24,577 nt of DNA, taken from positions 1-24,577 of IMG/VR virus record IMGVR_UViG_3300027668_001364; one strand, given 5' to 3'. Below the pieces are notes generated by a model. That model did not search any database. It was not told the DNA's origin and saw nothing but the letters and a program-made list of their open reading frames with translations. This DNA is from a virus. The position numbers were made by a program, and so were the translations under genes. Numbering within the stretch: the first letter of the stretch is position 1; every line of letters starts with the position of its first letter. Positions 5,873 through 22,251 of the stretch are shown here, one piece after another.

Positions 5873-5912
5873 TAAATATAAGAAAAAAAAACTTTAGAAC
5901 CAACTATAAACC

Positions 5913-6493: not shown

Positions 6494-8218
6494 TTATGCT
6501 GAGAAAGTTGCTCCTGTTGGTTCAATTGTAAAGTCTAGTACTACGAATTCAACTGTTTTAGCTGGTTGAATAAATACTTGTCCAATTAATTGATTTCTGT
6601 CGATAGTGTCTGACGTATTATTACTGTCATCCATTACAACTCTAAATGCATACAATCCTTGTCTCTGAACAACTGATTCTAAGAAGGGTGTTACTGTAGC
6701 TAAGAAACTATTTCTAGTTGCTATTGTATTCTGTTCGAATACTAAAGTTTTAGCTGTATCTCCTAAGAATTTTTTAAGTTCAATAAGCAATCTTCTAACA
6801 TTAACTCTGTCTAACGCTGATTTCTTCTTTTGAAGAGTCTTTTGACCGAATACTGATATACCACTTCCTGGGAATGTAGCGATTGGGTTAACGTTAGCAC
6901 TATATAATGTGTCTCTTTGTGTTCTTGTTAATTTTCTTTCTGCTTGGATTACATTTCCTAATCCTCCTCTAGTAAGACCTGCTGGTGCAAACCATGGTGC
7001 TGCTGCTCCATCTGTAAAGGCATATACTCCTGGGATAACAACTGATGCTGGTATCCATTCGTTTTTACCTGTAGCTGATTGAGTCTGTAACCAAGGCCAG
7101 TAACTTGCTGCGTAAGAAGAATTAACTGTCTTAGCTGTTCCTGTAGCATCTGTTACGTTTGCTCCGTAGTTCTGTAAATCTACTACTGCGATATTATCAC
7201 CTCTTGATTCTGCTAAAGAGATAATTGAATCTAACTGTATTTTGTGTGTTCCGAATTCGTATAAAAGACCTGGTGCAGATACAATATTAAATACATACTC
7301 ATCTTGGTTTCCTAGAATTGAGATAGCATTTGCATAATCTGATCCTATTAGACCTTGAGATCCAGCATCGGCTATATCGCCGAAATACTTATTCTGTACT
7401 TGTGTAGCTGAAACGTTAACTCCGGTTGCACTTACAAATGCTCCTATTTGAGCTGTTGGTAAAGATCCAGTAGAAGCTGCTACTCTAATTAATCCATCGT
7501 TACCTAAGTAATCTAATGTTTGTCGTACTGAGTCTTGTTTTACTGTAATGTAGTTGGACTTATTAACATATTCTCCGACCGTATTGACATAGTACTGTGT
7601 ACCGTCGTTAGCTTTAGATTTATATTGATTACCAATTACTGATTCAATGTACCCTTCTGAGTTAGGATCTAATGATAAATCATTCCATGTTTCAAGAACT
7701 ATTTTATTTTTTAAATTGTCATCTCCACGTCTTACTAAAAGACCGAAAGTACCAGATGTATTATCTACGTTTACTACTTCGAATCTAATATTGTCAGGAG
7801 ATCCATTTACCAATGAACCGTCTGAGTTAGCTGATCCAGAAGAATTATAAATTGTACCTTTTCCTAAAGTATTTAGTACAAATGGTGCTGCTCCAACTCC
7901 TGCTGTAATTGGTGTAGAATCAGCTGCTGTAAATGATCCATTTACTACTCTAGTTACGATTACTGAATTCCCACCTTGGTTAAAGTAGGACTTTACAGCA
8001 ATTGAAGTTAAAAATTCTTGTTTTGTAGATCCTGAAGTAAAGGTAGTACCGAAGATGTTCTGGTATTGTCCGTAAGAAGTAACCTTTGTAGGTATTTCTA
8101 CGGGACCTTTTACTGCTGGTCCGATTATTGCTGCCCCTGCTTCAATAGCGGATGGTGCGATAAAAGAAATGTCGTTTTCTCTTGCAAGTACGCCTGGGGA
8201 AATTAATGTTTCTGCCAT
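6494..8218 (-). CDS. Tail sheath protein, T4 gp18-like (574 aa)
   Basis: This is the contractile sheath subunit that surrounds the tail tube and shortens on infection. The N-terminus (ETLISPGVLARENDIS) and the stretch after it (SYGQYQNIFG near residue 50, SVIVTRVV near 85) follow the usual sheath pattern. The C-terminal 200 residues form the conserved core: ISVFGQKTLQ near 450, VNVRRLLIELKKFL near 475, and the end segment with NQLIGQVFIQPAKTVEFVV. Residues about 95-330, rich in Ser/Gly/Thr/Asn, look like a surface insertion domain. At 574 residues it is somewhat shorter than T4 gp18 (659). The tail-tube gene follows with a 37-base gap. The leader is long (114 bases), A/T-rich and without a Shine-Dalgarno, and holds a TATTTATAA motif. 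Confidence 0.95.
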   Translation of the reverse strand: MAETLISPGVLARENDISFIAPSAIEAGAAIIGPAVKGPVEIPTKVTSYGQYQNIFGTTFTSGSTKQEFLTSIAVKSYFNQGGNSVIVTRVVNGSFTAADSTPITAGVGAAPFVLNTLGKGTIYNSSGSANSDGSLVNGSPDNIRFEVVNVDNTSGTFGLLVRRGDDNLKNKIVLETWNDLSLDPNSEGYIESVIGNQYKSKANDGTQYYVNTVGEYVNKSNYITVKQDSVRQTLDYLGNDGLIRVAASTGSLPTAQIGAFVSATGVNVSATQVQNKYFGDIADAGSQGLIGSDYANAISILGNQDEYVFNIVSAPGLLYEFGTHKIQLDSIISLAESRGDNIAVVDLQNYGANVTDATGTAKTVNSSYAASYWPWLQTQSATGKNEWIPASVVIPGVYAFTDGAAAPWFAPAGLTRGGLGNVIQAERKLTRTQRDTLYSANVNPIATFPGSGISVFGQKTLQKKKSALDRVNVRRLLIELKKFLGDTAKTLVFEQNTIATRNSFLATVTPFLESVVQRQGLYAFRVVMDDSNNTSDTIDRNQLIGQVFIQPAKTVEFVVLDFTIEPTGATFSA

Positions 8219-8246: not shown

Positions 8247-8255
8247 TTATAAATA
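8247..8255 (-). promoter_or_regulatory. TATTTATAA motif, copy 1 (before the sheath)
   Basis: The coding strand reads GACGATATTTATAAGAG, 28 bases before the sheath ATG. Within the same 114-base gap there is also a TATAAT (about 8262-8267) and a variant TATTTATTAA (8303-8312). This is the best candidate for the major late promoter region of the tail module, but no -35 element is obvious. Confidence 0.45.
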
Positions 8256-8332: not shown

Positions 8333-8590
8333 CTAAGTTAAAGGTAAAAAAGTTCTAGTATCTAAATCAATCTTACCTTTACCGTATACGTCTTCAAGAT
8401 GTGCTCCTAATTGCTGTGCTTGAATTTCTGTTTGATCAGAGAATTCGATTGCTTTTATTTTTCTTTTTTTGAGAATCAATCTTTGGTGTTCTATTTCACC
8501 TAACTCTTTTATAAATGCACTCTTTCTATCGGCAATTGTATTAATTGCTGTAATATGTTCTTCTAAGACTATTATTGATTGTTTTTCCAT
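8333..8590 (-). CDS. Small coiled-coil protein (85 aa)
   Basis: An 85-residue protein that is almost entirely charged helix: ITAINTIADRKSAFIKELGEI, then a very basic LILKKRKIKAIEF, then an acidic end finishing GKIDLDTRTFLPLT. The heptad-like spacing of Ile/Leu residues between about 8 and 65 suggests a coiled coil. It has no signal peptide, cysteines or catalytic motif. It is the last gene before the sheath leader and follows the final radical SAM gene by 9 bases, so it probably shares that transcript. The leader (TTTAAATTAAAAAA) has no Shine-Dalgarno. It could be a minor tail or assembly factor; no function can be assigned. Confidence 0.65.
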   Translation of the reverse strand: MEKQSIIVLEEHITAINTIADRKSAFIKELGEIEHQRLILKKRKIKAIEFSDQTEIQAQQLGAHLEDVYGKGKIDLDTRTFLPLT

Positions 8591-8599
8591 TTTTTTAAT

Positions 8600-9817
8600 T
8601 TAAATAAGTACTGATTCATTATAACTAGCAAAGAGTATGCTGTGTAACTCGGGGTATGTCTTTTCAAAACTCTGATTACGTCTTATATCTAATTCAACAT
8701 TAATTTTAAAGAAGTTTTTAAATTCTTTTGGATTATGTTTATGGCTTTTCATATGATTAATAAGAGTGCTGTATTCTTTTCTTGTTTTATCACTCATTTC
8801 CATATTATTAATAATCTTTTCAATTTTAACTTTAGCTTCTTCTGGTATTATAGAGCTATCAAAGTATTTAGGGTAGAATAGTGGGTTCTTGTAAATTCGT
8901 ATGTTATGATCTTCAGACCAGTGCGAAATATTCTTAAAATCTAATATATTAAAAATTTGATGAGTAAAACATATGCTAAATTCAAAGGTATTATATTCTT
9001 TTGCGGCATCTAACCACTTCTCCATTGTAGCTTCTGTTTTTGGCCATTTAGCGGGGTATCTTACGTAGTCAAAACCTTTATCCGTTCCATCTATACTAAA
9101 TGATATGTCTGCATGTAGAAAATGTTTTAATATATCTACGTACTCCTGCTTGAATAAGGTACCGTTAGTATTAAAGTGTACATATTGAAATTGTGCATGA
9201 CCGTCTTCAATAGATTTTTTAAGTATATCCCATTGTTTTTTCATTAACATTGGTTCTCCTCCGTATAAGTCAAAAAACTTAACGTACTTTAAATTATCTC
9301 TAATTTCTTTCCATATTGCGCTTTCATCTCGGAATGGAGCTGAGTATTTATTTGCTTCATAATTTAGATCTTCTTTACTAAATGGATCTAAGTGTGGAAA
9401 TTCAATTTTAGTTGCTAAGTTATGGTCTGCTTTCCAGTTAATGCTTGCTCCTAAGTTACACATCCTGCATGCTAAGTTACATATGTTACCTAAGTTAATT
9501 TCAAGTAAGTAAGGCTTGTTAACTTCATTTTGACCGTCAACCTTTTCATTATCCCTAATACGTTTACTATCTTCACCAATTTCTTCTTCTTTCCAGCAAA
9601 TTTCACATATAGGATGCTTTATACCTTCCTCAAATGCTTTTCTCAGTCCCTGCAATGTAGGAGACATGAAAGCTTCTTCAAATGTATGAGTCTGTATATT
9701 CATACGTTTCCCACTCTCATCTCTAAACTGTGATTCTTTAGCAACACAGCAAGGATGAAATGTACCATCGGTAGCAATTCTAAGGCTGCTTTCTAAATTT
9801 ACGCATTTTAAACTCAT
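8600..9817 (-). CDS. Radical SAM protein 6 of the array (405 aa)
   Basis: The protein has a short N-terminal cysteine domain: C5, the pair C23-C24 in FHPCC, and C71/C74 in ICEICW, arranged as in twitch/SPASM auxiliary-cluster domains. The radical SAM core follows, with the 4Fe-4S motif CNLACRMC (C113, C117, C120) after EINLGN, and GGEP at 186-189 for SAM binding. LDIL-type strands and HFNTNGTL continue the TIM-barrel pattern. No further cysteine cluster appears in the C-terminal half. In known enzymes such a layout generates a 5'-deoxyadenosyl radical and uses the extra cluster for substrate binding or electron transfer. The gene overlaps the previous radical SAM gene by 4 bases. The substrate is unknown. 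Confidence 0.93.
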   Translation of the reverse strand: MSLKCVNLESSLRIATDGTFHPCCVAKESQFRDESGKRMNIQTHTFEEAFMSPTLQGLRKAFEEGIKHPICEICWKEEEIGEDSKRIRDNEKVDGQNEVNKPYLLEINLGNICNLACRMCNLGASINWKADHNLATKIEFPHLDPFSKEDLNYEANKYSAPFRDESAIWKEIRDNLKYVKFFDLYGGEPMLMKKQWDILKKSIEDGHAQFQYVHFNTNGTLFKQEYVDILKHFLHADISFSIDGTDKGFDYVRYPAKWPKTEATMEKWLDAAKEYNTFEFSICFTHQIFNILDFKNISHWSEDHNIRIYKNPLFYPKYFDSSIIPEEAKVKIEKIINNMEMSDKTRKEYSTLINHMKSHKHNPKEFKNFFKINVELDIRRNQSFEKTYPELHSILFASYNESVLI

Positions 9818-10839
9818 ACTACTGTTAAATTATGTCTTATATTATTAACCATAGGTAGTGTTTTGTACATCGTCAATAAGTCATTATAATTAGGGTGGTC
9901 TGGATTACCTACATCACATATTGTAAATTGCTCATCAGTCATTGTTCCCCAGTTTACTACTCTATTGTAGAATACACTCCAATTTTTTCCTTTGCCACTA
10001 AATATAGAAGCTGCTAGGTTATAAAAACCTTCCATCTCTGTATAGTTTGTATCTTGTACTACAAAAGACAGAGTTACAGTATTAAGAGAGGGTATATTAG
10101 CAATATACTTTAAATTTTCTAAAAGAGGGTCCCATTTGCCTCCTAATCTAGTTTTATTCTCATATGTATCTTTAGTACAAGCATCAACTGATATTTCACA
10201 GCTCTTTACTAGTGAATGTATATTAGGCATTCTTTCCCAATTTGACTTATTCCACAATGTAGCATTAGTATGTAAATGTATAGAATGTAATTTAGGGTAA
10301 AGAGATGGGTCAAACCTCATCATCCACTTTCTAAACGTTCTAGAAAAGAATGGATCTCCTGATCCTGTACATTCAATATGTTTTAATCCTTCTCCTAATT
10401 GAGTCTCTATATTATTTATCAATTCTTCAGTACGTACTCTTTCTTTACCTTCGTAGTTTATAAAATTAGTTCTACATGAGGGGCATTTTAAATTACAGCT
10501 CTGGTCAAAATTAAATTTTAAACTAGTTGGTAATTTATCTTTAAACTCTTCTCTTCTCTTTAAGAACTCATCTCTATGTATAAACCCTTCTGTTTTACCC
10601 TCTTTTAAACCTGTTAACTTTGGGCATCTTGATTCAATACAGTAACTATAAGATCCATCTAACATGCTGTTACGAATCTTTTCAGCTTTATCTGATTGCC
10701 AGTTTTCTGCAATATTATTTGGATTACCTAAATCTTCAGGTAACCAGTTAGGACAACACATATATGTTTTATGATCAAAGATCTCAGCAAACTCAAACGG
10801 TTGAGTGCATATCCAATCTTTTTTGTCCAATGCTATCAT
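9814..10839 (-). CDS. Radical SAM protein 5, divergent short member (341 aa)
   Basis: This is the shortest and most divergent radical SAM protein of the array. The N-terminal domain has C11, the pair C28-C29 and C67/C72; the last pair is CIESRC, spaced CxxxxC instead of the CxxC of its neighbours. The core 4Fe-4S motif is intact as CNLKCPSC (C115, C119, C122). The SAM-binding GGEP is replaced by GSGDP at 159-163 (TGSGDPFFS). HLHTNATLWNK near 190 fits the next barrel strands. The C-terminus ends soon after the barrel. It overlaps the next gene by 4 bases (ATG inside the stop region) and shares base 10839 with the previous gene's end. It is probably active, but the altered motifs suggest a different substrate or partner role. 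Confidence 0.9.
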   Translation of the reverse strand: MIALDKKDWICTQPFEFAEIFDHKTYMCCPNWLPEDLGNPNNIAENWQSDKAEKIRNSMLDGSYSYCIESRCPKLTGLKEGKTEGFIHRDEFLKRREEFKDKLPTSLKFNFDQSCNLKCPSCRTNFINYEGKERVRTEELINNIETQLGEGLKHIECTGSGDPFFSRTFRKWMMRFDPSLYPKLHSIHLHTNATLWNKSNWERMPNIHSLVKSCEISVDACTKDTYENKTRLGGKWDPLLENLKYIANIPSLNTVTLSFVVQDTNYTEMEGFYNLAASIFSGKGKNWSVFYNRVVNWGTMTDEQFTICDVGNPDHPNYNDLLTMYKTLPMVNNIRHNLTVV

Positions 10840-12224
10840 TATATCAATGCTTGTTTTTTAGAAGGTAGGTATTTCATTACCTTTCTAGTTCCGACTTTAG
10901 TAAAAAACTTTTGAGGGTCTTTAATTTTTGATCGTATTTCTTGGAACCATTTTTGATACTGAGGGTTTACTTCTAGAAAATCTTCATCTCTACTATTGTC
11001 TAGGTAAACTGTATTTTTTAACAGCTGCATTTCTGCTTGCTCTCTATCCCCTGTAAAAGGTTGGTTAATAAACTCTTTCCAGCTTCTTAATCCGTATTCT
11101 ACTACAAATTTAAAATGAGGAGGTACAATATTATCCTTGTAATCTGTAATCTTATCTATTAACTCTTTTTTTAAGTAATCTGGAAGCAATCTAACGTCGT
11201 AGAAGTCAGGTGTTGTTAATAAGTTGTTTACGTTTACTTTATCTGGGTCTATATTGAGTTCTATTGCTACATCTATTAACTCATGTATGTAAAACATATT
11301 CAAAAGACTAACAGTAGGAGAAAAATGTATTTCTATATCTCTCTTTCTGCATTCTTTAATATTATTGTATACTGAACTCCATTTTGTTCCGCTTCTAATT
11401 ACCTCTGCCAAAGTACCTACTGCATCTAGAGATGCAAATAAAGATATCTGCCCTTTAGGATCATCTATAAAATGTTGCCAAAGTCCAAATAGGTCCCACT
11501 TTTTAAATTTAGTATGGCTAAAGTTAGTATTATATCTTAACCTAACATCGGTTCTACCGGCTTCTATTAATTTTTCTAATATAGTATAGTGTTCTTGCAT
11601 TACTAGTGGTTCGCCACCTGCAAAATAGATCTCTTCCACATCCATAATGTGTTGATCTACAAGCCCAAATACATCTTCCTTACTTCTAGAGTTAAACTCT
11701 ATAATACCGCTAGGATTAGGTTTACCTGTTGTTTCTTTATTCCAGTCCTTACCTGTATTATCGTGGTGTAGTTCTGCTGCTTCTTCTGACCACTTACTAC
11801 TTGAGTATACTCCGCACATTCTACATTTAAAGTTACATATGTTAGACCATCTAAAGTCCCAATACTTTAAGCTAAATTTATTAGAATGTCCAGTCTCTTC
11901 ATTTGTTTCGTCTAGTACCTCTTTAACTCTATTATCAAATAAAGAATTGTGTGTAAATCTAGGACTATTTAATCCTTGATCTTCTATTAAGAAACATCTT
12001 GAACATAAATCAGGCCTTTCACCATTCATCATTTGTGTACGGATCTCTGTCATCTTAGGGCCGTTATAAATCTCTTGTAGAGTTTGGTCCTTAGTATTTC
12101 CGATAGTATCCCCGTAAGGAGCCATACAGCATGGATATACATCACCATTCGGCTGTACGTTTAAGTGAATCCAAGGAAGAATACAGAATGTATCTTTGCT
12201 TTTTAACTTTGGGTGATCAATCAT
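10839..12224 (-). CDS. Radical SAM protein 4, N-terminal twitch/SPASM-like (461 aa)
   Basis: This protein gives the clearest view of the shared architecture. Residues 14-77 read like a SPASM/twitch module moved to the N-terminus: CILPWIHLNVQPNGDVYPCC (C14, C32, C33), the phrase IGNTKDQTLQEIYN, and C74/C77 in LCSRC. The radical SAM motif CNFKCRMC (C130, C134, C137) follows, then GGEP at 203-206 and RYNTNFS. The C-terminal 100 residues have no cysteines and are helical and basic. I believe this order matches radical SAM proteins annotated as having an N-terminal twitch domain, a group without a settled function. It overlaps the upstream gene by 4 bases and abuts the downstream one by a single shared base. 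Confidence 0.94.
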   Translation of the reverse strand: MIDHPKLKSKDTFCILPWIHLNVQPNGDVYPCCMAPYGDTIGNTKDQTLQEIYNGPKMTEIRTQMMNGERPDLCSRCFLIEDQGLNSPRFTHNSLFDNRVKEVLDETNEETGHSNKFSLKYWDFRWSNICNFKCRMCGVYSSSKWSEEAAELHHDNTGKDWNKETTGKPNPSGIIEFNSRSKEDVFGLVDQHIMDVEEIYFAGGEPLVMQEHYTILEKLIEAGRTDVRLRYNTNFSHTKFKKWDLFGLWQHFIDDPKGQISLFASLDAVGTLAEVIRSGTKWSSVYNNIKECRKRDIEIHFSPTVSLLNMFYIHELIDVAIELNIDPDKVNVNNLLTTPDFYDVRLLPDYLKKELIDKITDYKDNIVPPHFKFVVEYGLRSWKEFINQPFTGDREQAEMQLLKNTVYLDNSRDEDFLEVNPQYQKWFQEIRSKIKDPQKFFTKVGTRKVMKYLPSKKQALI

Positions 12225-13501
12225 ATTTTAGGTATTAAAACTGGTTGTAATGCTTTAATTAATTCTGGGAAAGTATCTCTTACTTTTTCTTTTCTTAATT
12301 CGTCCACATTATCTGTTACTTGTATAAAAGTAGGTGCTTTACCGTTATACTCTGAATTATAAAATGTATCATATAATCTCTTATAGTAGTGATTAGGTAT
12401 TAATCCTTTTATACTATCTAATTTTTTTCTTCTTACCTCTAACGGTAATATATTTGGATTTTGATAATCAGGTGTTAAAACGTAATTATCATTTATATAC
12501 TTTAACTTAGAGTGGTCTTCAAAATCTGCTGCCATAATACCTTCTTTTACTAGGTACTGTGTTAATTCTTCTATATGTAGAAAGTTAAATGCGCTTATAG
12601 TCTGATTTACTCCAAATGTAAAATTATATTCCTCTATAAACCTTTTAGTGTTTCTAATTGTTAAATCAAAATCACTTAAACTTCTAATATATTTATTTCG
12701 TTCAAATATATCATCGATACTGATGTTAATATTTACATGCTTAAAATGTGTTAACCTATCAAACATAGGCTTTAACTTATCAAAGTTATAGTTAGCATTA
12801 GTAATATACGAAATTGATACGTTCTTTGCAATATCTTCTTTAATTAAAAGATCTAAAAGTATTTTATGCTTATCTACTAAGAAAGGTTCTCCACCACTAA
12901 TCTGTAACATATCCATACTAGGAGAAGACTTTAATATTTCAACATAGAAATCTATATCTTCAACCCAGCCGTAATCTGTATCTTCAGAGTTTTTTAGGCT
13001 ATCGTAATTACTAGGCAACGGAATTTTATTTCTTAACTTATAATAGTCATCAATCCAAGATGTAGATGATTCTGCATTACAGGATCTACATTTTAAATTA
13101 CAGAAATTACCCAACCTTAATTCTAGGTTCCTAATATCTGGTACAATAGTACCGTCTGGGGATGTTATGGTAGAGTAGTCTACTTTATTTCTTACTTCTT
13201 CTCTCTGTCTTTTAGATTGTCCACCGTCGATCTCTACCTTATGGCAGGTATTACAAGGTGTAGGTACATCTCCGTTAAGCATATCCACTCGCATCTCTTT
13301 ATACGAATCAGAATTAATTAACTTCTCTACTCCATCTCTAACATTAAGAGCTTTAGGGGTAAATTGACCGTCTACTTTGTTTTTTGCTACTGATATGTTA
13401 CTTTCCCAATCTACTGCACAACAGGGTGAAGCATGCCCATGAGGGTGTATACTTAAGTGTTCCCACATTAATGAGCAAAGCCAAGGTTTCTTTTTATCCA
13501 T
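12221..13501 (-). CDS. Radical SAM protein 3, N-terminal twitch/SPASM-like (426 aa)
   Basis: N-terminal cysteine domain: C9 in PWLCSLMWEHLSIHP, C27-C28 in ASPCC, and C83/C86 in PCNTC. Radical SAM core: CNLKCRSC (C134, C138, C141) followed by NAESSTSW, and GGEP at 203-206 in MLQISGGEPFLVD. ISYITNANYNFDKL and VNINISIDDI are the expected later barrel strands. The downstream part to 426 is Asn/Tyr/Lys-rich and lacks cysteines. It is closest in layout to the 461-residue neighbour, with the CC pair and the small-residue spacing between domains. The start overlaps the end of the upstream gene by 8 bases and the end overlaps the next start by 4, consistent with coupled translation. Confidence 0.93.
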   Translation of the reverse strand: MDKKKPWLCSLMWEHLSIHPHGHASPCCAVDWESNISVAKNKVDGQFTPKALNVRDGVEKLINSDSYKEMRVDMLNGDVPTPCNTCHKVEIDGGQSKRQREEVRNKVDYSTITSPDGTIVPDIRNLELRLGNFCNLKCRSCNAESSTSWIDDYYKLRNKIPLPSNYDSLKNSEDTDYGWVEDIDFYVEILKSSPSMDMLQISGGEPFLVDKHKILLDLLIKEDIAKNVSISYITNANYNFDKLKPMFDRLTHFKHVNINISIDDIFERNKYIRSLSDFDLTIRNTKRFIEEYNFTFGVNQTISAFNFLHIEELTQYLVKEGIMAADFEDHSKLKYINDNYVLTPDYQNPNILPLEVRRKKLDSIKGLIPNHYYKRLYDTFYNSEYNGKAPTFIQVTDNVDELRKEKVRDTFPELIKALQPVLIPKI

Positions 13502-14840
13502 TCTTTAGACTATTGTACCAGTTATTAAATTCTTCAGGCATATAGTCTGCAATGGGTTTGTTTCTTCTAACTGCATATTGGTCTACGAAATTTATTAAAT
13601 CATTTCGTTTTTTTGCAGTTGAGTCTACGTCTTCATACGACTTGTCAACCTTACGTAAATAAATAAGCAACCTTTTTAATTGATTACGCTCTAAGTCATT
13701 AATCCACTCTTTATTATTATCCATAACATTACTTATACGTGCTGCTAAAGTTTCTTTAATATCTTGAGGTAACATTGCAACACTTTGGAATGAAGGAAAT
13801 CTTAATATATTTACCGACATAAAGAATGCATGTTTATCATTTTGTTCTTTTTTCCAATCTACTATCTGCTGTACAAACTTATCAACTGTCCAAATACCTA
13901 ATAATGATACTGTCATCATAATGTATACTCCATTAATATTTGGAGATGCAACAGCAGTTTTAACATTTTTTTCCCATAGGTCCCAAATAAACCCATCACG
14001 TACAAATTCTTGATTCTTACCAATACATTCTGCTGAAGTATAGATGTCAAACTTTTTAAATTTCTTTCCTGCATCTAATAAACGTGCTAATCTAGTATCG
14101 TCCATTATGAGGTTACTATTAACTGCAAGATTGAAAGGCTCTTGCTCACTCATATCAATTAACTTCCAGAATGAAGGGCTCCTTGAAGGTTCTCCTCCTG
14201 ATACTCTAAGTTCATCTAACCCTCCTTTAATTTCCGGATACCAGTCGAAGAACCGTTTAACATAAATGTTACCTTCGTTTTTATTACCGAATGGCATAGC
14301 AATAGATCCATCTTGTCTATACGTTTTACCGCCGTCAGTTTCCATATTTTTATACTCTCCGTTAACTACAATATCTCTAGCCCAGGTAGAACTAAACTCT
14401 GAATTACAATATGAGCATGCTAAGTTACATAGGTTATCAAAGCATATTTCTAAGGTCTTTGGGTCTACATTCTTATCCCAAGGTATATCCTTCAGCGCTT
14501 CTATTTCTTCTTCTGTATATCTAGCTGTTTGATATACCCTATCACTGTTAATTTCAGTTCCTTGAGTTTCATCTTCTACCTTCCAACAGTAACCGCATTC
14601 TTTAGGTCTTTCACCTTCCAACATTTTTTTACGTTGTTCTTTTTTAAACTTAGTGTTATGTAGTGCTGAAGGATCTGCTGCTAGTTCTGCTTTTGGAACA
14701 GGGTGTGCAAGTGGATGATGACAGGATGCTGTTCTTCCATTACCTAACCATACAGATACGTTATACCACTTTGCTGCGCAAAACGATTTAGGCTGTATCT
14801 TCTTTATTAATTCGTTTGTTCTTTCGTAACTCGTTTTCAT
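13494..14840 (-). CDS. Radical SAM protein 2, CHHP-type (448 aa)
   Basis: The N-terminal cysteine domain differs from the CC type: C21 in SFCAAKWYNVSVW, then C40-H41-H42-P43 instead of a double cysteine, then C82/C85 in ECGYCWKVED. The core motif is CNLACSYC (C138, C142, C145) and GGEP lies at 215-218 (LRVSGGEPSRSP). The stretch HNTKFKKEQRKKMLEGERP is nearly the same in the 458-residue protein upstream (HNTRYKKEKRKEMLEGKRP), so the two are recent paralogues. A histidine ligand could replace a cysteine in the auxiliary cluster, which is inference. The gene overlaps the LamG-like gene upstream by 4 bases and the next radical SAM gene by 8. Confidence 0.93.
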   Translation of the reverse strand: MKTSYERTNELIKKIQPKSFCAAKWYNVSVWLGNGRTASCHHPLAHPVPKAELAADPSALHNTKFKKEQRKKMLEGERPKECGYCWKVEDETQGTEINSDRVYQTARYTEEEIEALKDIPWDKNVDPKTLEICFDNLCNLACSYCNSEFSSTWARDIVVNGEYKNMETDGGKTYRQDGSIAMPFGNKNEGNIYVKRFFDWYPEIKGGLDELRVSGGEPSRSPSFWKLIDMSEQEPFNLAVNSNLIMDDTRLARLLDAGKKFKKFDIYTSAECIGKNQEFVRDGFIWDLWEKNVKTAVASPNINGVYIMMTVSLLGIWTVDKFVQQIVDWKKEQNDKHAFFMSVNILRFPSFQSVAMLPQDIKETLAARISNVMDNNKEWINDLERNQLKRLLIYLRKVDKSYEDVDSTAKKRNDLINFVDQYAVRRNKPIADYMPEEFNNWYNSLKNG

Positions 14841-15439
14841 CCTAGTTGGTATAAAAAATTACAGTTTCCTGTTTTATCTACTGATTTATCGTGTACTAGG
14901 TCATTAAAGTCGTGATGGGCTATAACCTTCTCTTTATCTGTTATCTTAAACTCATACATTATTATATCTGGTTCGCTACTATGATCTTTAACTATATGTC
15001 TATCTGTTCCAATAAACAATATTGGGTCTTCTACTACCGCTAGAGGTCTATCAGTAACTCCGTATTCGTGAACAAGTTCGTTTCTCAAAGGTTCTGTTTG
15101 TCTATATACCTTTAGATCTGAGCCTGTCTTATGCTCAAATGTCCATCTTTCTCTAGAGCCGGGCTCTATAAATGTATCTGTTCCGTACCATTCATCTTTA
15201 TCGTCATGACCTACACCTATAAATATTCGCTTTTCAAAGATCGACAGACCTGTATACTTAGGTACAATACAGAATATATCTTTTTGAAGATTCATATTAT
15301 TACCTGTGTACTCAAACTCAACTTCAATCTTCCAGTTCTGGTCTCCTTGTAGTACGCTTACTGCTGGTTTATCTAAAAAAGATGGTGCAATACTTTCAGG
15401 CCATAACGCCCATGGGTGTCTTCTACTTATACTGATCAT
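14837..15439 (-). CDS. Orphan LamG-like beta-sandwich protein (200 aa)
   Basis: A 200-residue beta-rich protein without catalytic motifs or signal peptide. Alternating strands such as WKIEVEFEY (36-44), KRIFIGVG (70-77) and DPILFIGT (138-145) are followed by IIMYEFKITDKEKVIAHHDF and a closing VDKTGNCNF. This resembles the end of LamG/concanavalin A-like domains, where a final strand leads into a D-x-S-G-N-x-x-x-G-type phrase. The two GT7 proteins upstream contain a similar domain (for instance LIDLSGNEHHGT). I read it as a free-standing sugar- or ligand-binding jelly roll, possibly derived from the GT7-LamG genes. It sits between the two CHHP-type radical SAM genes, overlapping the first by 17 bases and the second by 4, which suggests it works with them. 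Family assignment is moderate. Confidence 0.55.
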   Translation of the reverse strand: MISISRRHPWALWPESIAPSFLDKPAVSVLQGDQNWKIEVEFEYTGNNMNLQKDIFCIVPKYTGLSIFEKRIFIGVGHDDKDEWYGTDTFIEPGSRERWTFEHKTGSDLKVYRQTEPLRNELVHEYGVTDRPLAVVEDPILFIGTDRHIVKDHSSEPDIIMYEFKITDKEKVIAHHDFNDLVHDKSVDKTGNCNFLYQLG

Positions 15440-16799
15440 ACATCTCTTTTAGTTCAGGAAATATTTCTCCAAAATTAGTTCCCTTTCTTTTATCGTTTTC
15501 TTTTATAAAGATAGCGAAATCTTTTCGATTTTTCTTTACATCGAAAGAATCTTCTCCTACTGCGTAATCATATGTTCGTTTAATTTTCTGGATCTCTACA
15601 TCTGTAAAGCCGTAGTTTAGACGAGTCATTTTATTAGTACCGTAATGAAGTGCCTTTTTAGCTGCTTCCAAAATTAACTCTTTATGTTCTGGATCTAATA
15701 TCTTTACCGAGAGATGAGGAGGCCATCTTATATACGCAGTATCTAACTGAACAGCTGTATACCAATACCTTTCTCCATTTTGATGTTTCTTTTTCATCTC
15801 CAATACTTTGTCTACTAAGTCCCCATATGTAAATACTGATAGAGCATTAAACGCTGCCATAATGTTTACTGTAAGTTTAGGTATTTCTGTACATAGGTGA
15901 TCTATATTTTCCCAGAACTTATCATAGCTTAATCCCCATCTAGTATATTCAGCTTGTTTTCCGATTGCTTCTACAGATGTAAATATTATAAGCTCTCTTA
16001 CTTTATTATTATTTACTAAATCTTTAGCAATAGTGATCATCTTCTCAATTAGTTTATCCGGTACTGCTAAATTTGTATTAATAGCTAAGGATATGTTTGG
16101 GTTCTGTTCCCAATTTTCTTGAATATATTCTAATACTTTAAATGTATCAGGAGAAAGCAAAGGCTCTCCTCCGGTTATTCTAAAGGTATGCAAATCGGGG
16201 TATAAATCTGGCCACCATTCCCAGAAAGCTTCAATATATGGATTATACTGCGTTTTCTTATATGGCATCTCTCCTCGTTCTTTAATAAGGTCTATACTAT
16301 TAAAGTCTGTTGATGTTTTATATGCACCGTGTTTTTCTATTTCTTCTACCCACTTTGATGAGTATTGAGGTCCACAATAAGCACATTTTAAATTACAAGT
16401 ATTGGAAAAAGATACTTCTACATATCTAGGATTATAATTATCTCTCCAATTTGAAGCTTTAATTTTTTCCATTTGATCTAAAGACCAAGGTTCAGCTGAT
16501 TTAAAAGTTCTATCTGAGAATGAGTTAGAATTATCTTCTACATTCCAGCAATAGTTACATTCAGAAGGTCGTTTGCCTTCAAGCATTTCTTTTCTTTTCT
16601 CTTTTTTGTATCTAGTATTATGTAGAGCAGATGGATTTCTCTTTAACTCTGCTAATGGTATTTTGTGAGGCACAGGGTGATGACATGAATGTGTCATTCC
16701 CGTAGCTAAATGCAAAGTGACTTGTGTCCATTTTGCTAAACACATTCCGCATCCAGTCTTATTTAGTTCCTCTCTTACTTGGGCATATTGGTTGCTCAT
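15423..16799 (-). CDS. Radical SAM protein 1, CHHP-type (458 aa)
   Basis: First radical SAM gene of the array in transcription order. The N-terminal domain has C17/C20 in GCGMCLAKW, C39-H40-H41-P42, and C81/C84 in ECNYCWNVED. The core is CNLKCAYC (C135, C139, C142) in SFSNTCNLKCAYCGPQYSS, and GGEP is at 210-213 (FRITGGEPLLSP). LAINTNLAVP and IIFTSVEAIG follow as barrel strands. The C-terminal 150 residues carry no cysteine cluster. It is the sister of the 448-residue protein. Its ATG overlaps the stop of the upstream GT7-LamG gene by 4 bases (ATGA), which ties the glycosyltransferase and radical SAM parts of the block into one translationally coupled unit. Confidence 0.94.
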   Translation of the reverse strand: MSNQYAQVREELNKTGCGMCLAKWTQVTLHLATGMTHSCHHPVPHKIPLAELKRNPSALHNTRYKKEKRKEMLEGKRPSECNYCWNVEDNSNSFSDRTFKSAEPWSLDQMEKIKASNWRDNYNPRYVEVSFSNTCNLKCAYCGPQYSSKWVEEIEKHGAYKTSTDFNSIDLIKERGEMPYKKTQYNPYIEAFWEWWPDLYPDLHTFRITGGEPLLSPDTFKVLEYIQENWEQNPNISLAINTNLAVPDKLIEKMITIAKDLVNNNKVRELIIFTSVEAIGKQAEYTRWGLSYDKFWENIDHLCTEIPKLTVNIMAAFNALSVFTYGDLVDKVLEMKKKHQNGERYWYTAVQLDTAYIRWPPHLSVKILDPEHKELILEAAKKALHYGTNKMTRLNYGFTDVEIQKIKRTYDYAVGEDSFDVKKNRKDFAIFIKENDKRKGTNFGEIFPELKEMYDQYK

Positions 16800-18202
16800 A
16801 ACTTGATATTAATTAGTTTTGCCCATGGAGTAAGTATAGTCTCATCCACAAATTCATACTTTAATGTACTTATACCATCGTTTTTATAATCTACCTTTCC
16901 CTGTTGCATTTGAAGTACGTATCTCTCTTCATTCTTAGCAGTATTCTTCTTTTTAAATACTCCTCCTACTATACCTTCATCTTCGTGAGGAAGACATCTC
17001 ATCTTACCCTCTCTTCTATGAGGTAAAATTGAGTTAGGTATCACTATATCTTCTTGACATACCTCTATATTGTTATTTTCATATGTACTCTTATCAGAGA
17101 AGTCCTCATTTATAATTAGACCTTCTGTAGGTAGTTGAGTATGTACATTTGAAACCTCATCTGAAGATAATGCTCTATCCCATACCATTACTTTAGCTAT
17201 ATCTCCCTTGAAGTACTTGATACTGCTTGATTCATCTTCTGATGGTGTGTGCCCTAGGTATAGTTTATCTATATTATATTTCTTTAATCGACCCGTATAG
17301 TTTAACGGAGATGGACTACCATGTCCTGCTAAAGAATCTACTTCTGTACCGTTTAAGTAAAAATGTCCTAACTTGTCTTGATCATCTAAAACAACTGTTA
17401 CCCAGCTCCATTGGTGATCATATCTTTTTAACCACATATAATGGTGTTGGTTAAAAGAGTTCCAAAAGGTCATTGAAACTGCCCTACTATTATTAAAAGA
17501 TATTCCGTAATCATATCCAGGGATTCTTAAGATTGGGTACTCTATATACTTTCTCTCACTACTCCCGATTAAAAATATAGGATTTTTATCAGGCATTTGA
17601 AATGCTCTTGTTAGTACTGAAATTGTATGGGACTTTCTACTAAAGTTTTTATGTTCTTCCGGGACTGGTATAAATGCTTTTGAATCTTGTCCATTAAACC
17701 TAATAAAATTCTTATGTTCTTCTGTATCTAAATAAGTATCTTTTGTAAGACCTTCTAGATGACATCTCCAAAATAAATCATCATCTTCCATTCCCCAGTC
17801 CCAGTAGTTATTAGAATATCCGTTTGTCTGTTCTAACTGCTCCTTACTAAATAAAACTGCTCCTCCGAAATATTCATGGTACTTAAGCATATAGTCCATT
17901 TGTGATATCTTTGTAGCGATATGACGTGGCCCTTCTACTGGAAAGCTATAATCTGCTAGTCCACCTGGTTCAGGTATCATATCGATATCATGCCAAACTA
18001 TATAATCACATCCTTCCTCTAATGCATGTTTTGCTGCTATATTTTTAGTAGCACCACGATTAAAGAGTTTATCATCTGTTTGATGTGCAAAATACATTTG
18101 AAAATCTATACCTGCATCTTTTAAGTACTTACCGACTTTAGGTACGAACTCATTTAAGTGTAATTCTCTATCTCTGTACGGTACGCAGACTCCTAATTTC
18201 AT
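16796..18202 (-). CDS. GT7 galactosyltransferase-like enzyme with LamG insert (468 aa)
   Basis: The N-terminal 150 residues match the beta-1,4-galactosyltransferase (GT7) pattern: VPYRDRELHL at 7-16, FNRGATKNIA at 47-56, metal-binding DID at 72-74 in HDIDMIPE, YFGGAVLF at 111-118, and NGYSNNYWDWGMEDDD at 127-142 with the acidic catalytic motif. Residues about 165-360 are a LamG-like beta-sandwich (HTISVL, HFYLNGTEV, IDKLYLGH, YFKGDIAKVMVWDRALS). After it comes a segment with MRCLPHE (H406) and NDGISTLKYEF, which corresponds to the metal-ligand histidine and SDGLNSLTY end of animal beta4GalT. The LamG domain therefore appears nested inside the catalytic fold. It likely transfers a sugar from a nucleotide donor; donor and acceptor are unknown. 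No signal peptide is seen, so it is cytoplasmic. It is paralogous to the next gene upstream. Confidence 0.85.
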   Translation of the reverse strand: MKLGVCVPYRDRELHLNEFVPKVGKYLKDAGIDFQMYFAHQTDDKLFNRGATKNIAAKHALEEGCDYIVWHDIDMIPEPGGLADYSFPVEGPRHIATKISQMDYMLKYHEYFGGAVLFSKEQLEQTNGYSNNYWDWGMEDDDLFWRCHLEGLTKDTYLDTEEHKNFIRFNGQDSKAFIPVPEEHKNFSRKSHTISVLTRAFQMPDKNPIFLIGSSERKYIEYPILRIPGYDYGISFNNSRAVSMTFWNSFNQHHYMWLKRYDHQWSWVTVVLDDQDKLGHFYLNGTEVDSLAGHGSPSPLNYTGRLKKYNIDKLYLGHTPSEDESSSIKYFKGDIAKVMVWDRALSSDEVSNVHTQLPTEGLIINEDFSDKSTYENNNIEVCQEDIVIPNSILPHRREGKMRCLPHEDEGIVGGVFKKKNTAKNEERYVLQMQQGKVDYKNDGISTLKYEFVDETILTPWAKLINIKL

Positions 18203-19611
18203 GTCAATGCTGCTTTTAAGTGGTGTATATTCTGAATGTATTCATCCTCTAACAGTGTAAAGTGTAGATTACCTAATCCGTCATTTTCTCCTGTGTATTT
18301 ATCATCGTAGAAACTTTTGTAGTACCTAATCTGATTCTCTCGGCTTTGCCAAGTTTTCCAATACCCATCTATATATCCGTTTTCATCATGTTTTAGTGCT
18401 GAGAATATACCGGGTCTTCTATTGGGTACCTTGACTATAGACTCTTCTCCTGTTTCAAGTAATTTAGAAACTGTATTAAAACATGTTCCGTGGTGTTCAT
18501 TTCCAGATAAATCTATTAACTGTTTCCCCTTTACAAATTTAGTATCATAGTATAACTCTGGTTGATTAATAAAGTTATTAGCAGATATCTCAAGTAAACT
18601 ATAGTCTTTATTATTTACTATGTTTTTTATTGTTTTAGCATCTAAAGCCTCTTTCCATATAGTAAAGGTTGATATTGTACCAGCAAAATAATTTGGTTTT
18701 TCTTCTCGTTCAGGATCACCTACTCCAAGATACATATACTTACTAGATAAGTTCATTGCTTTATCGTATAACTTTGTACCGACTCTTTCGCCATTTAAGT
18801 AGAATCTAACTCTTCTACCTTCTGCTTCCACACAGTATACTATAGTAGCATTATAACTTGCTGGAGGAGTATGTTCTGATGTTATACTCATAGAGCTTAA
18901 ATCTTTTTTCCAAAACTGGTAAGAGAAGTTTCTAAAGGAGTTATAAATTAAGGCTGTATCACGACCTGGTATTGAAAAAATAGAGAATACATCTGTTATA
19001 AGGTTGGGATCAGTTTTTATATCATCAACTGTAAAGTCTACAGATATAGTATAACTCCGACTAGCATTTAATATATTAGGTACAGCTATAAAAGAGTCTT
19101 TACCGTTAAAACTTAAACTTGTTCTAGTCTGTTGTTTTTGAGTTACTACTTTATCCTTAAGTTCTACATTATGTTTAATACATCTCAGCATTAAGTCATC
19201 ATCTTCAAATCCCCAACCAAAGTACGTATTAGAGTACCCGTTTATAGCCTCAAAGATACCAACTGGAAATAGTGTAGCTCCCCCAAAGTATTCATCAAAA
19301 TTAACCCTATTAAAGCCCTCTGGTAAGTTTAACTCTCCTATTAAATGCTGCACGCTTTTAGAATATGAGTAGTCTACTTTTTCAGGTATTAAATCAATAT
19401 CATGAAATACTACGTAATCACAATTTAACTTAGTTGCTTTTACAAAGCCAATATTTAACAATTTGCCCCTATTAAAATCATTACCGTCTACCTGTTCGAC
19501 TATAATAATTTCATAGTCTAAGTTCCTTAAAGTGCTTATCATAGCTTCTTTAAAGATCTCTAGCTGTTTAGGTCGATTTCGATAAGGTACAATAATACCT
19601 AATTTATGCAT
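18199..19611 (-). CDS. GT7 galactosyltransferase-like enzyme with LamG insert (470 aa)
   Basis: Tandem paralogue of the 468-residue enzyme with the same domain order. GT7 motifs: VPYRNRPKQL at 8-17, FNRGKLLNIGF at 46-56 (almost the animal beta4GalT sequence), DID at 71-73 in HDIDLIPE, YFGGATLF at 108-115, and NGYSNTYFGWGFEDDD at 124-139. The LamG-like part spans about 165-385: SYTISVDF, VRFYLNGERVGT, YMYLGVGD, YFAGTISTFTIWKEAL and LIDLSGNEHHGT. The C-terminal catalytic piece resumes with RRPGIFSALKHDENG (H408 as candidate metal ligand) and ENDGLGNLHF. The WGWG-type loop is more canonical here (FGWGF) than in the paralogue (WDWGM), so the two may differ in donor or acceptor. It overlaps its neighbours by 4 and 8 bases. 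Confidence 0.85.
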   Translation of the reverse strand: MHKLGIIVPYRNRPKQLEIFKEAMISTLRNLDYEIIIVEQVDGNDFNRGKLLNIGFVKATKLNCDYVVFHDIDLIPEKVDYSYSKSVQHLIGELNLPEGFNRVNFDEYFGGATLFPVGIFEAINGYSNTYFGWGFEDDDLMLRCIKHNVELKDKVVTQKQQTRTSLSFNGKDSFIAVPNILNASRSYTISVDFTVDDIKTDPNLITDVFSIFSIPGRDTALIYNSFRNFSYQFWKKDLSSMSITSEHTPPASYNATIVYCVEAEGRRVRFYLNGERVGTKLYDKAMNLSSKYMYLGVGDPEREEKPNYFAGTISTFTIWKEALDAKTIKNIVNNKDYSLLEISANNFINQPELYYDTKFVKGKQLIDLSGNEHHGTCFNTVSKLLETGEESIVKVPNRRPGIFSALKHDENGYIDGYWKTWQSRENQIRYYKSFYDDKYTGENDGLGNLHFTLLEDEYIQNIHHLKAALT

Positions 19612-19813
19612 CTTTTTCTTCAGTATCAGGAGATTTTGGAACTACCTTATGAAATTCAGATAAGTAATATTGTATTCTATCATTCCACTCGTCTTTGTCT
19701 ATTTCCTCAAACCAAAGTGCTAAAGCATCTACTGAGTTTGCTATTTTTTCTAAAGCTTTGAGTTTTCTTTCTTCAAAGATTTGTGCTTCTACAGTACTTA
19801 ATTTTCCACTCAT
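19604..19813 (-). CDS. Small acidic helical protein (69 aa)
   Basis: A 69-residue protein beginning MSGKLSTVEAQIFEERKLKAL, with helix-prone residues 5-55 including SVDALALWFEEIDKDEWNDR and an acidic, Lys-tipped end. It has no cysteines, no signal peptide and no leader/core division, so it does not look like a classical radical-SAM peptide precursor. It lies between two glycosyltransferase genes and overlaps them by 4 and 8 bases, so it is certainly positioned to be co-translated with them. It may be a small accessory or scaffold subunit; no family is recognised. Confidence 0.65.
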   Translation of the reverse strand: MSGKLSTVEAQIFEERKLKALEKIANSVDALALWFEEIDKDEWNDRIQYYLSEFHKVVPKSPDTEEKDA

Positions 19814-20649
19814 ATTTTAATTATTTGTTGTTTAATCTTTTCCCAGTGTGGGTAGTCTATATATTCAATATAAGAAGTTTCTTGCAGCTTTTCTACTAAA
19901 TACTCCTTTTTATTAATGTCTATCTTCCAATCTTCACTTGCTATGGAATTATACATTACTTGATATTCATCTGAGAATGAATAGTCGGTCTTTACGTCAG
20001 CTACCTTCTTTATTCGATCTATGCATGTAGAGTCCCATTTAAAATGATGTACCTGTGTAAAGCATTCATCTATTGGCATTCTCTTAGGGTGTTTTGAACC
20101 CCAACTATTAGTTCCATCTTCAAAAGATGCGTAATGCTGTCCAGGCGTTACTTTTTGGTAGCCTTTCATAAGGGTTACCTTATTGGGGCATGCTCCAGAC
20201 ATTGGATATCTAAAGAAACCTGCTAAAGGAAAGGACGTATGTAAATTTGTTTCTCTCCCTACTGTGGGGAAAGTACCACCTTTGCCTATCCTATCTATGA
20301 AACCTCCTGTAACAAAGTCATATCCATGTCTTTCACATGTATTTATGATGTCCTCAAGTGGTTTTGGGTATACCTGCAATTCATCATCATCTGTTACTAT
20401 CCACCAATCGTTTGGTTTAAGTAACTTAACTGTATTATATATCTCTGTTACTCTAGTCCAATTATATTTAGGTTCAGTTACTACCCAGTAAGGTGTTATA
20501 CCTAAGTTTTCAACTTCTTCAAGTATTTTATCATTATCTGATTGTCTGTAAACTACAACATATACCTTATCTACTATATTCTCATAATGTTTTAGCATAT
20601 GAGGTAGTATGTGTGTATTTTCTCCTACGACTGTAACTAAGTTAAGCAC
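19810..20649 (-). CDS. GT-A type glycosyltransferase (279 aa)
   Basis: Residues 1-100 have the nucleotide-sugar binding layout of the family 2-like glycosyltransferases that include the Glyco_tranf_2_4 group: MLNLVTVVGENTHILPHMLKHY, VDKVYVVVYRQSDN, and the acidic WWIVTDDDELQVYP at 82-95, which supplies the DxD-type metal site. FVTGGFIDRIGKGG and a run of aromatic/His residues (HHFKWDS near 216) make up the acceptor side. Length fits a single-domain cytoplasmic enzyme without membrane segments. Sugar donor and acceptor cannot be read from sequence. The start overlaps the methyltransferase gene by 8 bases and the stop overlaps the 69-residue gene by 4, placing it firmly in the block. Confidence 0.75.
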   Translation of the reverse strand: MLNLVTVVGENTHILPHMLKHYENIVDKVYVVVYRQSDNDKILEEVENLGITPYWVVTEPKYNWTRVTEIYNTVKLLKPNDWWIVTDDDELQVYPKPLEDIINTCERHGYDFVTGGFIDRIGKGGTFPTVGRETNLHTSFPLAGFFRYPMSGACPNKVTLMKGYQKVTPGQHYASFEDGTNSWGSKHPKRMPIDECFTQVHHFKWDSTCIDRIKKVADVKTDYSFSDEYQVMYNSIASEDWKIDINKKEYLVEKLQETSYIEYIDYPHWEKIKQQIIKI

Positions 20650-21400
20650 GCTGTAAAAGTGTTATTCCTGTTGAGGATGGTTTATCTGGTAACTGCCCTG
20701 TATTGAAAAAATTAAATTGTTTCCATTCTGAGCTTATTTCTTCTAGTAATCTAGATGGTCCTTCAAAAGGTATGTAATCTTTTTTAGCATCTTCTGAGAT
20801 TATTAGTTCTTCTTCAAATTTACGATCTGTATCGTGAATTGAAATCATTCCGTTTGGTTTAAGCAGTTTTGAGTATAGCTCAAAATCTAACTTAACATCT
20901 TCGTAGGAGTGACCTGCGTCTATGTGTATAAAGTCTGCTTTTATGTCCTGCTTAACAAAAAAGTTATAGTAAGCATTTTCTGTTGTATCTTTTATATACC
21001 GAGGATAAAAAGTGGATCTAAAAAAAGAGTCTTCCTGTAAGTAATCAACTACGCCGCCAATTCCGTTCGCAGCATCGACAAGGTATGTTACACCTATATC
21101 ACCCCAGTTATAGTCTCTATTACCTTCAAATATACCTTGATCATATAAATCAAGTCTAGCTTGTGTAAGTATACGGGGTACAAAGCCTCCTCCTGATCCT
21201 AAACAGATTATAATCTTATAGCGCATTAACTGTACTATCGAATAAAGAAGTAATCCATCTCCTAAGTGTTTATCTGTAGCTCCATGAGTCCATCTATACG
21301 GAACTGGTTCATATGTAGTTACTATACTTCCGTCACCCTGAACAGTCTCCTTTCTGTTATTAGTAATAAATTGAGATATCCATTCCTTGTTTGTAATCAT
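20642..21400 (-). CDS. SAM-dependent methyltransferase, class I (252 aa)
   Basis: A Rossmann-fold methyltransferase. Motif I is IIICLGSGGGFVPR at 63-76, followed by an acidic strand (VTYLVDAANGIGG at 104-116). A later DFIHIDAGHSYEDVKLDFEL at 156-175 and LLKPNGMISIHDTD at 179-192 are typical of the Methyltransf_24 group, which contains sugar and natural-product O-methyltransferases. The N-terminal 55 residues (with YRWTHGATDKHLGDGLLLY) probably cap the active site. Between glycosyltransferases, methylation of a sugar or sugar-linked group is the natural guess, though a protein target is possible. The ATG shares a base with the stop of the gene upstream (TAATG) and the end overlaps the next start by 8 bases. 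Confidence 0.85.
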   Translation of the reverse strand: MITNKEWISQFITNNRKETVQGDGSIVTTYEPVPYRWTHGATDKHLGDGLLLYSIVQLMRYKIIICLGSGGGFVPRILTQARLDLYDQGIFEGNRDYNWGDIGVTYLVDAANGIGGVVDYLQEDSFFRSTFYPRYIKDTTENAYYNFFVKQDIKADFIHIDAGHSYEDVKLDFELYSKLLKPNGMISIHDTDRKFEEELIISEDAKKDYIPFEGPSRLLEEISSEWKQFNFFNTGQLPDKPSSTGITLLQRA

Positions 21401-22251
21401 TACTTTTTAGGTATAAATGAGACATCTAATTTACGAATATTTATGCAATTCTCCAACAGTTTACACTCTTCTTCATAACCGAGTACTGTATTTCCGGCAA
21501 TTATAAACTTCTTCTCTGGTCCGTAATGCTTAAAGTATAGTTCTGATTCTGGGAAATTCCATAAACCTCTATCGTGGTGCTCTCCCCATTCCCATTTAAC
21601 ACAGTCCCAATATGTTGATATAATACTCTTGTATTTAATTTTTTTTGTATCTAAAATATTACGTAAAAGTAGTTGTTCAGCAAAAATAAGATATTGGGAG
21701 TTAGGTACTTTCATTTCAGTAAACTGTTCCATTATATCTAAGCATTCATTTGCATAGTACTGTAATACAGTTGGATCCGGAAAATATAAAAAAGATACGT
21801 TAAGGGAGTCTTGTTGCCATCTTACTTTCTTTTTTAACTTTCTAACAAAAGGATCTATATTACCGGGATAGTAGCCTTTTCCAGTTTCTAGGTTTGCTAC
21901 TAGTATATCGTCTTTTAGGTACTTCTCAAATGGTTTAAATACTAATGTATCATTATCCATTATAATACAGGGCACTGTTTGTTCTGAAAGTACTTTTACT
22001 TTATTGCAAGCCCAAAAGATCTTACGGTCTATACTCAATGTATGAGTGTAGGTATTGACTTCATCGAACATAATGAGACCCCCTGTTTTTTCGACTATGT
22101 CTTTTGTCAGGGGATCGCAATAAAATACTAAATGGTGTGTTGGATGATTCTTTTTCCAAAGAGTAACAGATGAAAGTAATAGTAGAATGTTAAACCTACT
22201 ATAGAACCCCTCATCACCGTGGATGTTTTCTAAAACCCAAATTACTCTCAA
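21400..22251 (-). CDS. Probable glycosyltransferase with DND motif (283 aa)
   Basis: The protein has a GT-A-like plan: MRVIWVLENI at the N-terminus, LVFYCDPLTKDIV at 41-53, then CIIMDNDTLVFKPF at 95-108, where DND is a likely DxD metal/nucleotide-sugar site. QDSLNVSFLYFPDP near 146-159 and YFKHYGPEKKF near 236 resemble parts seen in DUF6734-like and related phage or bacterial glycosyltransferases, but I cannot name the family firmly. It has no signal peptide or membrane helix. It is the first enzyme of the block in transcription order and starts 20 bases after the stop of a small virion-like gene, so the block may be read through from the tail-fibre transcript. Confidence 0.65.
   Translation of the reverse strand: MRVIWVLENIHGDEGFYSRFNILLLLSSVTLWKKNHPTHHLVFYCDPLTKDIVEKTGGLIMFDEVNTYTHTLSIDRKIFWACNKVKVLSEQTVPCIIMDNDTLVFKPFEKYLKDDILVANLETGKGYYPGNIDPFVRKLKKKVRWQQDSLNVSFLYFPDPTVLQYYANECLDIMEQFTEMKVPNSQYLIFAEQLLLRNILDTKKIKYKSIISTYWDCVKWEWGEHHDRGLWNFPESELYFKHYGPEKKFIIAGNTVLGYEEECKLLENCINIRKLDVSFIPKK

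Follow-up and report, generated by a model that had tools for sequence, protein, structure and literature searches.

The virus record IMGVR_UViG_3300027668_001364 (24,577 nucleotides; hereafter, the window) carries six genes for radical S-adenosylmethionine (SAM) enzymes with N-terminal cysteine domains, directly behind a set of glycosyltransferase (GT) genes and between a tail fibre gene and a tail sheath gene. We propose, with slightly better than even confidence, that these genes belong to a late, fibre-linked phage operon, in which the GTs build a glycan and the radical SAM enzymes modify it by radical chemistry. The GT-lectin genes are the strongest clue to the role of the array. If the proposal is true, phages make radical-modified glycans, with consequences for how hosts are recognised, for competition between phages and for new sugar chemistry.

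The window is probably a fragment, and all the genes described here are on its minus strand. In the order of transcription, the genes encode the fibre (with an S74 chaperone), a 182-aa protein, a 159-aa protein, a DUF6734 protein, a methyltransferase-like protein, a GT2-like enzyme, a small protein termed w13, two GT7 proteins (GT7Lb and GT7La), rSAM-A, a 200-aa protein, rSAM-B, C, D, E and F, an 85-aa protein and the sheath (Table 1). From the methyltransferase-like gene to the rSAM-F gene (21400 to 8600), every start overlaps the preceding gene. In both GT7 proteins, a LamG lectin domain sits behind the catalytic region; this domain seems to be inserted within the GT7 fold, and the C-terminal GT7 motif resumes, weakly, after it. 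GT7La resembles beta4GalT7/1 (phmmer E 1e-25) and had no match among cultured phage records. The DUF6734 protein is probably also a glycosyltransferase-type enzyme. Locus counts in this study come from the best-scoring loci of each search with simple calling of open reading frames (ORFs), and describe the retrieved set and not global frequencies. When GT7La alone was used as the query, all 21 independent loci retrieved had rSAM-A as the next gene, in most cases at a -4 overlap. This invariant coupling of GT7-lectin and rSAM-A points to a galactoside as a concrete candidate substrate and defines a smallest gene set for expression. As in a phage glycan-modification locus, where GTs and sugar-nucleotide genes share an operon or site, one GT2 and two GT7 genes are present here, and genes for NeuB, UDP-glucose dehydrogenase and cytidylyltransferase occur at homologous sites.

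In the proposed mechanism, the GT2-like enzyme and the two lectin-carrying GT7 enzymes would assemble a sugar chain. rSAM-A would then abstract a hydrogen from a sugar carbon and so oxidise or otherwise rearrange the residue; its N-terminal [4Fe-4S] twitch cluster would accept the electron, the role suggested for the twitch cluster of the sugar-alcohol dehydrogenase BtrN. rSAM-B to rSAM-F may be exchangeable follow-on tailoring enzymes, each acting on one position or residue. Stepwise modification of one polymer, one of two options suggested in an earlier note made from the letters of this DNA, fits the layout of the genes; the note did not mention the GT-lectin genes. The tail fibre or baseplate is the most likely destination of the product because the genes are probably read from the late promoter of the fibre gene (see below). 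Remodelling of a host surface glycan would be a close second. In this proposal, the sequences, the synteny, the conservation, the selection and the association with GT genes are observed, whereas the sugar substrate, the sequence of reactions, the late timing and the destination are inferred.

The six radical SAM genes are intact ORFs of 458, 448, 426, 461, 341 and 405 aa within 8600-16799, as the earlier note described. All six proteins match the NCBIfam family NF033640 (N_Twi_rSAM, twitch domain-containing radical SAM protein; E 1e-18 to 1e-111). The curated cut-off of this family is 170 bits. rSAM-A, B, C, D and F pass it (282-373 bits) and, like the family, have an N-terminal twitch followed by a radical SAM barrel. 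In contrast, rSAM-E is under the cut-off (65 vs 170 bits), is distinguished by CX4C and GSGDP, and is classed as a divergent relative only. PF04055 is also matched by all six proteins, over its cut-off in five; rSAM-B is below it (23.5 vs 29.5). The CxxxCxxC motif is present in six of six, and GGEP in five, with GSGDP in rSAM-E. Upstream of CxxxCxxC, the cysteines number four or five and are spaced as C-x17/18-C(C)-x37-54-CxxC, the last part of which is CX4C in rSAM-E. Thus the intact motif and the preceding cysteines, both claimed in the note, are found in every protein. Beyond the motif, only isolated cysteines are present in all six; therefore, as also claimed, there is no C-terminal SPASM cluster. 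A full SPASM domain is C-terminal and binds two auxiliary clusters, and the six enzymes have an N-terminal half-SPASM only. Within the clade of rSAM-E, all members keep CX4C, and the second motif usually has its GDP form. Therefore, rSAM-E represents a subfamily and not decay; pseudogene decay of this 341-aa gene is ruled out by the conserved clade together with a ratio of non-synonymous to synonymous substitution rates (dN/dS) of 0.041. Contrary to the note, the array is not uninterrupted: the gene for the 200-aa protein lies between the 458- and 448-aa genes, with an overlap at either end. The description of the array as lying next to sheath and fibre genes also needs correction: the 85-aa gene stands between the array and the sheath gene, and the fibre gene is 6.5 kb off, behind the GT genes.

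The N-terminal cysteines probably form a four-cysteine cluster, as the note assumed. The pattern C-x15-20-C-x25-90-CxxC ahead of the barrel is nearly invariant: it is kept in 168 of the 169 non-E proteins in a tree set of 180. A profile of the 461-aa (rSAM-D) subfamily matches the twitch of the butirosin dehydrogenase BtrN with E 6e-6, no other solved structure matches the N-terminal domain better, and the four ligand positions align. The auxiliary cluster of BtrN has four-cysteine ligation, and a role in accepting electrons is proposed for it (PMC9012708). Together, the conservation and this alignment support a cluster of the same ligation in the phage enzymes. However, the order of domains is reversed: the twitch follows the barrel in BtrN and precedes it in the phage enzymes. 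Moreover, BtrN, whose substrate is a free aminocyclitol, is about 250 aa long, whereas the phage enzymes have 341-461 aa. AlphaFold models were confident, with a predicted local distance difference test (pLDDT) score of 93.8 for rSAM-A and 90.4 for rSAM-D. The closest solved folds include SuiB, BlsE, SkfB and viperins; BlsE, a sugar-nucleoside radical SAM enzyme, ranks among the top matches. In the literature searched, no function or reaction of the NF033640 family was found.

Several observations weigh against a glycan-modifying operon. Many characterised SPASM/twitch enzymes modify peptides, and two peptide maturases, SuiB and SkfB, rank high among the folds matched by rSAM-D; the Foldseek TM-scores of all the fold matches are low (0.3-0.5). 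In Bacteroidota chromosomes, related radical SAM genes are mostly alone, with no obvious sugar genes alongside. Several neighbour families have no Pfam assignment. In the loci L199-L201, the module forms an operon of its own between genes on the opposite strand, and thus the link to fibres is weakened. Finally, the transcription unit is deduced from the sequence only.

The radical SAM enzymes might act on a protein, either a fibre-associated structural protein or w13, with a cross-linked peptide or a glycopeptide as the product, in the manner of ribosomal peptide maturation. We consider this unlikely, but the close folds SuiB and SkfB and the conservation of w13 make it a serious alternative. 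Among the small ORFs between GT2 and GT7Lb, 38 of 39 align as one family, with the core LEERKVKALEKIANSLDALTIWFEEIDKDEWSERIQYYL rich in W, F and Y; moreover, two small structural-type genes precede the block. However, conservation in w13 is strongest in the centre of the protein, unlike the pattern of a constant leader followed by a variable core, and there is no conserved cysteine. w13 is a possible but atypical substrate of the type of ribosomally synthesised and post-translationally modified peptides. Other features also speak against a protein substrate: no RRE/PqqD-like domain is among the Pfam matches of the six enzymes, the radical SAM slots exchange with sugar genes (see below), and no homologue of w13 turned up next to the arrays of a wider class of phages (for example, L022).

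The earlier note had argued for active, specialised paralogues, and this is supported by the rates of substitution and by the sharing of each subfamily among many phages. Against a sister contig, dN/dS was 0.018-0.098 for the six radical SAM genes, below the values for the sheath (0.18) and the fibre (0.39). Purifying selection on the radical SAM genes is strong. rSAM-A, the first gene of the array, is the most conserved (0.018). In a FastTree phylogeny of the 180 proteins, the A, B, C and E types each group with members from many phages. rSAM-A and rSAM-B are sister subfamilies, the B clade spans phage groups, and E forms its own clade of 11; the tree has long branches and its deeper splits are unsure. 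The order A then B is kept in most mapped loci across different phage groups. These subfamilies are paralogues of ancient origin. Recent tandem duplication was ruled out: full-length matches among the six are only 21-32% identical, and the orthologues are common to many phages.

N-terminal twitch radical SAM proteins are a large family found in hundreds of uncultured phage contigs. The layout in which radical SAM genes stand directly behind GT genes recurs in many uncultured phages of aquatic habitats. Among 66 independent viral loci, each 14 kb or longer, that were retrieved with the radical SAM profile, 59 have at least three radical SAM genes and 48 at least five, with a maximum of eight per locus; of 336 pairs of same-strand neighbouring radical SAM genes, 299 overlap or abut. 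Thus the recurrence that the earlier note put up for testing in phage and metagenome contigs is real, often beside fibre or structural genes, and the array in the window is usual for its family and not exceptional as had been supposed. The cellular relatives are mostly single radical SAM genes in Bacteroidota genomes. A Bacteriovoracaceae genome (L317) has eight copies, including A- and B-like ones, and an Elusimicrobia genome (L313) has six consecutive genes. A few genome contigs with such relatives are plainly viral. An array with A- and B-like types was also observed in an Oligoflexia genome (L267).

Behind rSAM-B, the content of the loci varies. Other radical SAM types, UDP-glucose dehydrogenase, SGNH-like proteins (our label; no Pfam match), adenosine 5'-phosphosulfate kinase, carbamoyltransferase, NAD epimerase and cytidylyltransferase occupy these slots. 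In L174, where rSAM-A is the sole radical SAM gene, the slots hold, for example, UDP-sugar dehydrogenase and cytidylyltransferase. In two relatives, L118 and L120, there is no radical SAM gene in the stretch read, and sugar genes precede the 85-aa-like gene and the sheath gene instead: NeuB and a HAD/nucleotidyltransferase fusion in L120 and an aminotransferase in L118, each tested in that locus. At this site before the sheath, NeuB-type nonulosonate synthesis and SGNH-like genes were observed (L118:3-9560, L120:628-8354). Because L118 and L120 carry sugar genes at this position and the cultured Flavobacterium phage immuto carries none of these genes there, the island is, judged by gene content, accessory, and its exchange partners are sugar genes. 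A wider proposal is that of a modular assembly line. A fixed core (GT2, w13, the two lectin-GT7 enzymes and rSAM-A) would make a glycan or glycopeptide of new chemistry on receptor-binding parts of the virion, and the exchangeable rSAM-B to F and sugar enzymes would vary it between phages, as with bacterial O-antigen loci. We hold this wider proposal only tentatively and think it improbable.

The module is also found in other settings. In L201, from another phage group, it is a free-standing operon about 3 kb from a collagen-type fibre gene, and in L234, from a third group, it lies behind fibre-like genes of the lectin type. The loci L022, L015 and others like them represent a second, wider phage group with a nearly fixed order: a fibre-type gene, two GT-like genes, c0_310, rSAM a, c1_371, b, d, f, d, c6_353 and a carbamoyltransferase gene. 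The scanned members of its c0, c1 and c6 families had no Pfam match save isolated sub-threshold ones for c1, and c0_310 and c1_371 had no PDB match.

The late timing of the operon is suggested by a promoter-like motif, TATTTATA, which was scored on the coding strand in the 60 bases before each gene of Immutovirus-like contigs. The motif was found before the genes for the tape measure protein (38 of 40), hub (41 of 54), tube (59 of 63) and sheath (53 of 68). Before the fibre gene, it was found in 6 of 19 cases and its 7-base core in 15 of 19, and it preceded 0 or 1 of each radical SAM or GT gene. In the window, coding-strand sites are at 8248-8255, 6473-6480, 5865-5878, 4849-4856 and 1272-1279, before tail genes. 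Thus, TATTTATA is a candidate late promoter of Immutovirus-like phages. If so, the island would be read from the fibre promoter, and we therefore consider that the island genes are probably read from it. The T4 late promoter TATAAATA was rejected: it was not found on the coding strand, where the motif is TATTTATA. Sigma-70-like promoter sites were fewer than expected by chance.

This probable timing bears on two further explanations. In one, the operon remodels the host surface polysaccharide against co-infecting phages, as in serotype conversion, and leaves the virion untouched. Such a role has been proposed for GTs in the host-recognition clusters of pelagimyophages (PMC7029224), and sugar-nucleotide genes lie at the site. 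However, fibre-linked late transcription would be late for superinfection exclusion, and no gene of the window was recognised as encoding a membrane flippase or a polymerase; we regard this explanation as distinctly unlikely. In the other, the enzymes modify phage DNA bases or nucleotides. GTs hypermodify DNA in some phages (work cited in PMC12619734), and viperin, which acts on nucleotides, is among the fold neighbours. The location among tail genes and the probable reading from the fibre promoter suggest expression after replication, though, and GT7 enzymes are galactosyltransferases acting on protein-linked, lipid-linked or free sugars. Moreover, no base-synthesis genes were recognised nearby. 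Modification of DNA is thus very improbable.

The backbone genes place the phage among known relatives. Sheath, tube and hub were identified via PHROGs, and the tape measure gene was assigned from synteny and its resemblance to relatives. With 62% identity, the sheath of Flavobacterium phage vB_FspM_immuto (Immutovirus) is by a wide margin the best whole-protein match among cultured phages, and the gene order 85-aa-like gene, sheath, tube, hub and tape measure is common to both. The phage is T4-like and probably infects marine Bacteroidota; a Bacteroidota host is judged likely solely from these two features. In contrast to the window, immuto is without the island of radical SAM and GT genes before the sheath.

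Table 1. Features of the window in the order of transcription.
Feature	Coordinates	Strand	Evidence and remarks
Tail fibre with S74 intramolecular chaperone	23313..24577 (5' end beyond window)	-	PF13884, E 5.5e-14
182-aa protein, conserved behind fibre	22755..23303	-	syntenic
159-aa protein, conserved behind fibre	22272..22751	-	syntenic in 13 loci
DUF6734 protein	21400..22251	-	PF20508, E 4e-10
252-aa protein, class-I methyltransferase-like by motifs (weak)	20642..21400	-	phrog_2675, E 1e-4; conserved in module
GT2-like glycosyltransferase	19810..20649	-	PF13704, E 1e-6
w13, conserved 69-aa protein	19604..19813	-	between GT2 and GT7Lb
GT7Lb, second GT7-LamG protein	18199..19611	-	PF13733, PF02709, PF13385
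GT7La, beta-1,4-galactosyltransferase-like with LamG lectin domain	16796..18202	-	PF02709, PF13733, PF13385
rSAM-A, 458 aa, N-terminal twitch radical SAM enzyme	15423..16799	-	NF033640, 333.7 bits; N-terminal Cys 20/39/81/84
200-aa protein, possibly concanavalin/LamG-like (weak)	14837..15439	-	between rSAM-A and rSAM-B
rSAM-B, 448 aa	13494..14840	-	NF033640, 281.9 bits; N-terminal Cys 21/40/82/85
rSAM-C, 426 aa	12221..13501	-	NF033640, 299.1 bits; N-terminal SPASM match; N-terminal Cys 9/27-28/83/86
rSAM-D, 461 aa	10839..12224	-	NF033640, 372.7 bits; N-terminal SPASM PF13186, E 1.5e-14; N-terminal Cys 14/32-33/74/77
rSAM-E, 341 aa, divergent subfamily	9814..10839	-	NF033640, 65 bits; PF04055, 36.5 bits, above cut-off; N-terminal Cys 11/28-29/67/72
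rSAM-F, 405 aa	8600..9817	-	NF033640, 285 bits; N-terminal Cys 5/23-24/71/74
85-aa protein	8333..8590	-	end marker of island; homologue precedes sheath in immuto
Tail sheath	6494..8218	-	phrog_23, E 6.7e-72; TATTTATA motif upstream

Marine phages rich in radical SAM genes are already known. The T4-like marine phage TARA_ERS488813_N000010 has 12 such genes (PMC5332604), and pelagimyophages carry radical SAM cassettes next to GTs in a variable host-recognition cluster (PMC7029224). Radical SAM and GT genes are jointly enriched in some marine viromes (PMC7150976). These T4-like phages resemble the window in their many radical SAM genes, and the pelagimyophages also in their GT neighbours, but the available portions of the accounts describe no subfamilies, gene order, GT7-lectin module or N-terminal twitch. 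Virion proteins of mycobacteriophages are glycosylated (Freeman 2023, cited in PMC12619734). This is like our proposal in having glycans on virion proteins, although the passage that cites it mentions no radical SAM enzymes. The literature searched yielded no account of the N-terminal twitch subfamilies, of the order in which they occur or of the conserved GT7-lectin/rSAM-A module.

The 200-aa protein between rSAM-A and rSAM-B had no significant Pfam match; its family is present in 24 loci. Comparison with a LamG_3 protein at a similar position gave a weak hhalign match (E 0.002, probability 14%), and the LamG label is left open. Among cultured phage records, the radical SAM matches are at most 26% identical. 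Vibrio phage K566, which is cultured and among the nearest culturable relatives, has a small cluster of three annotated radical SAM genes (L007:8717-13119) with 20-26% identity.

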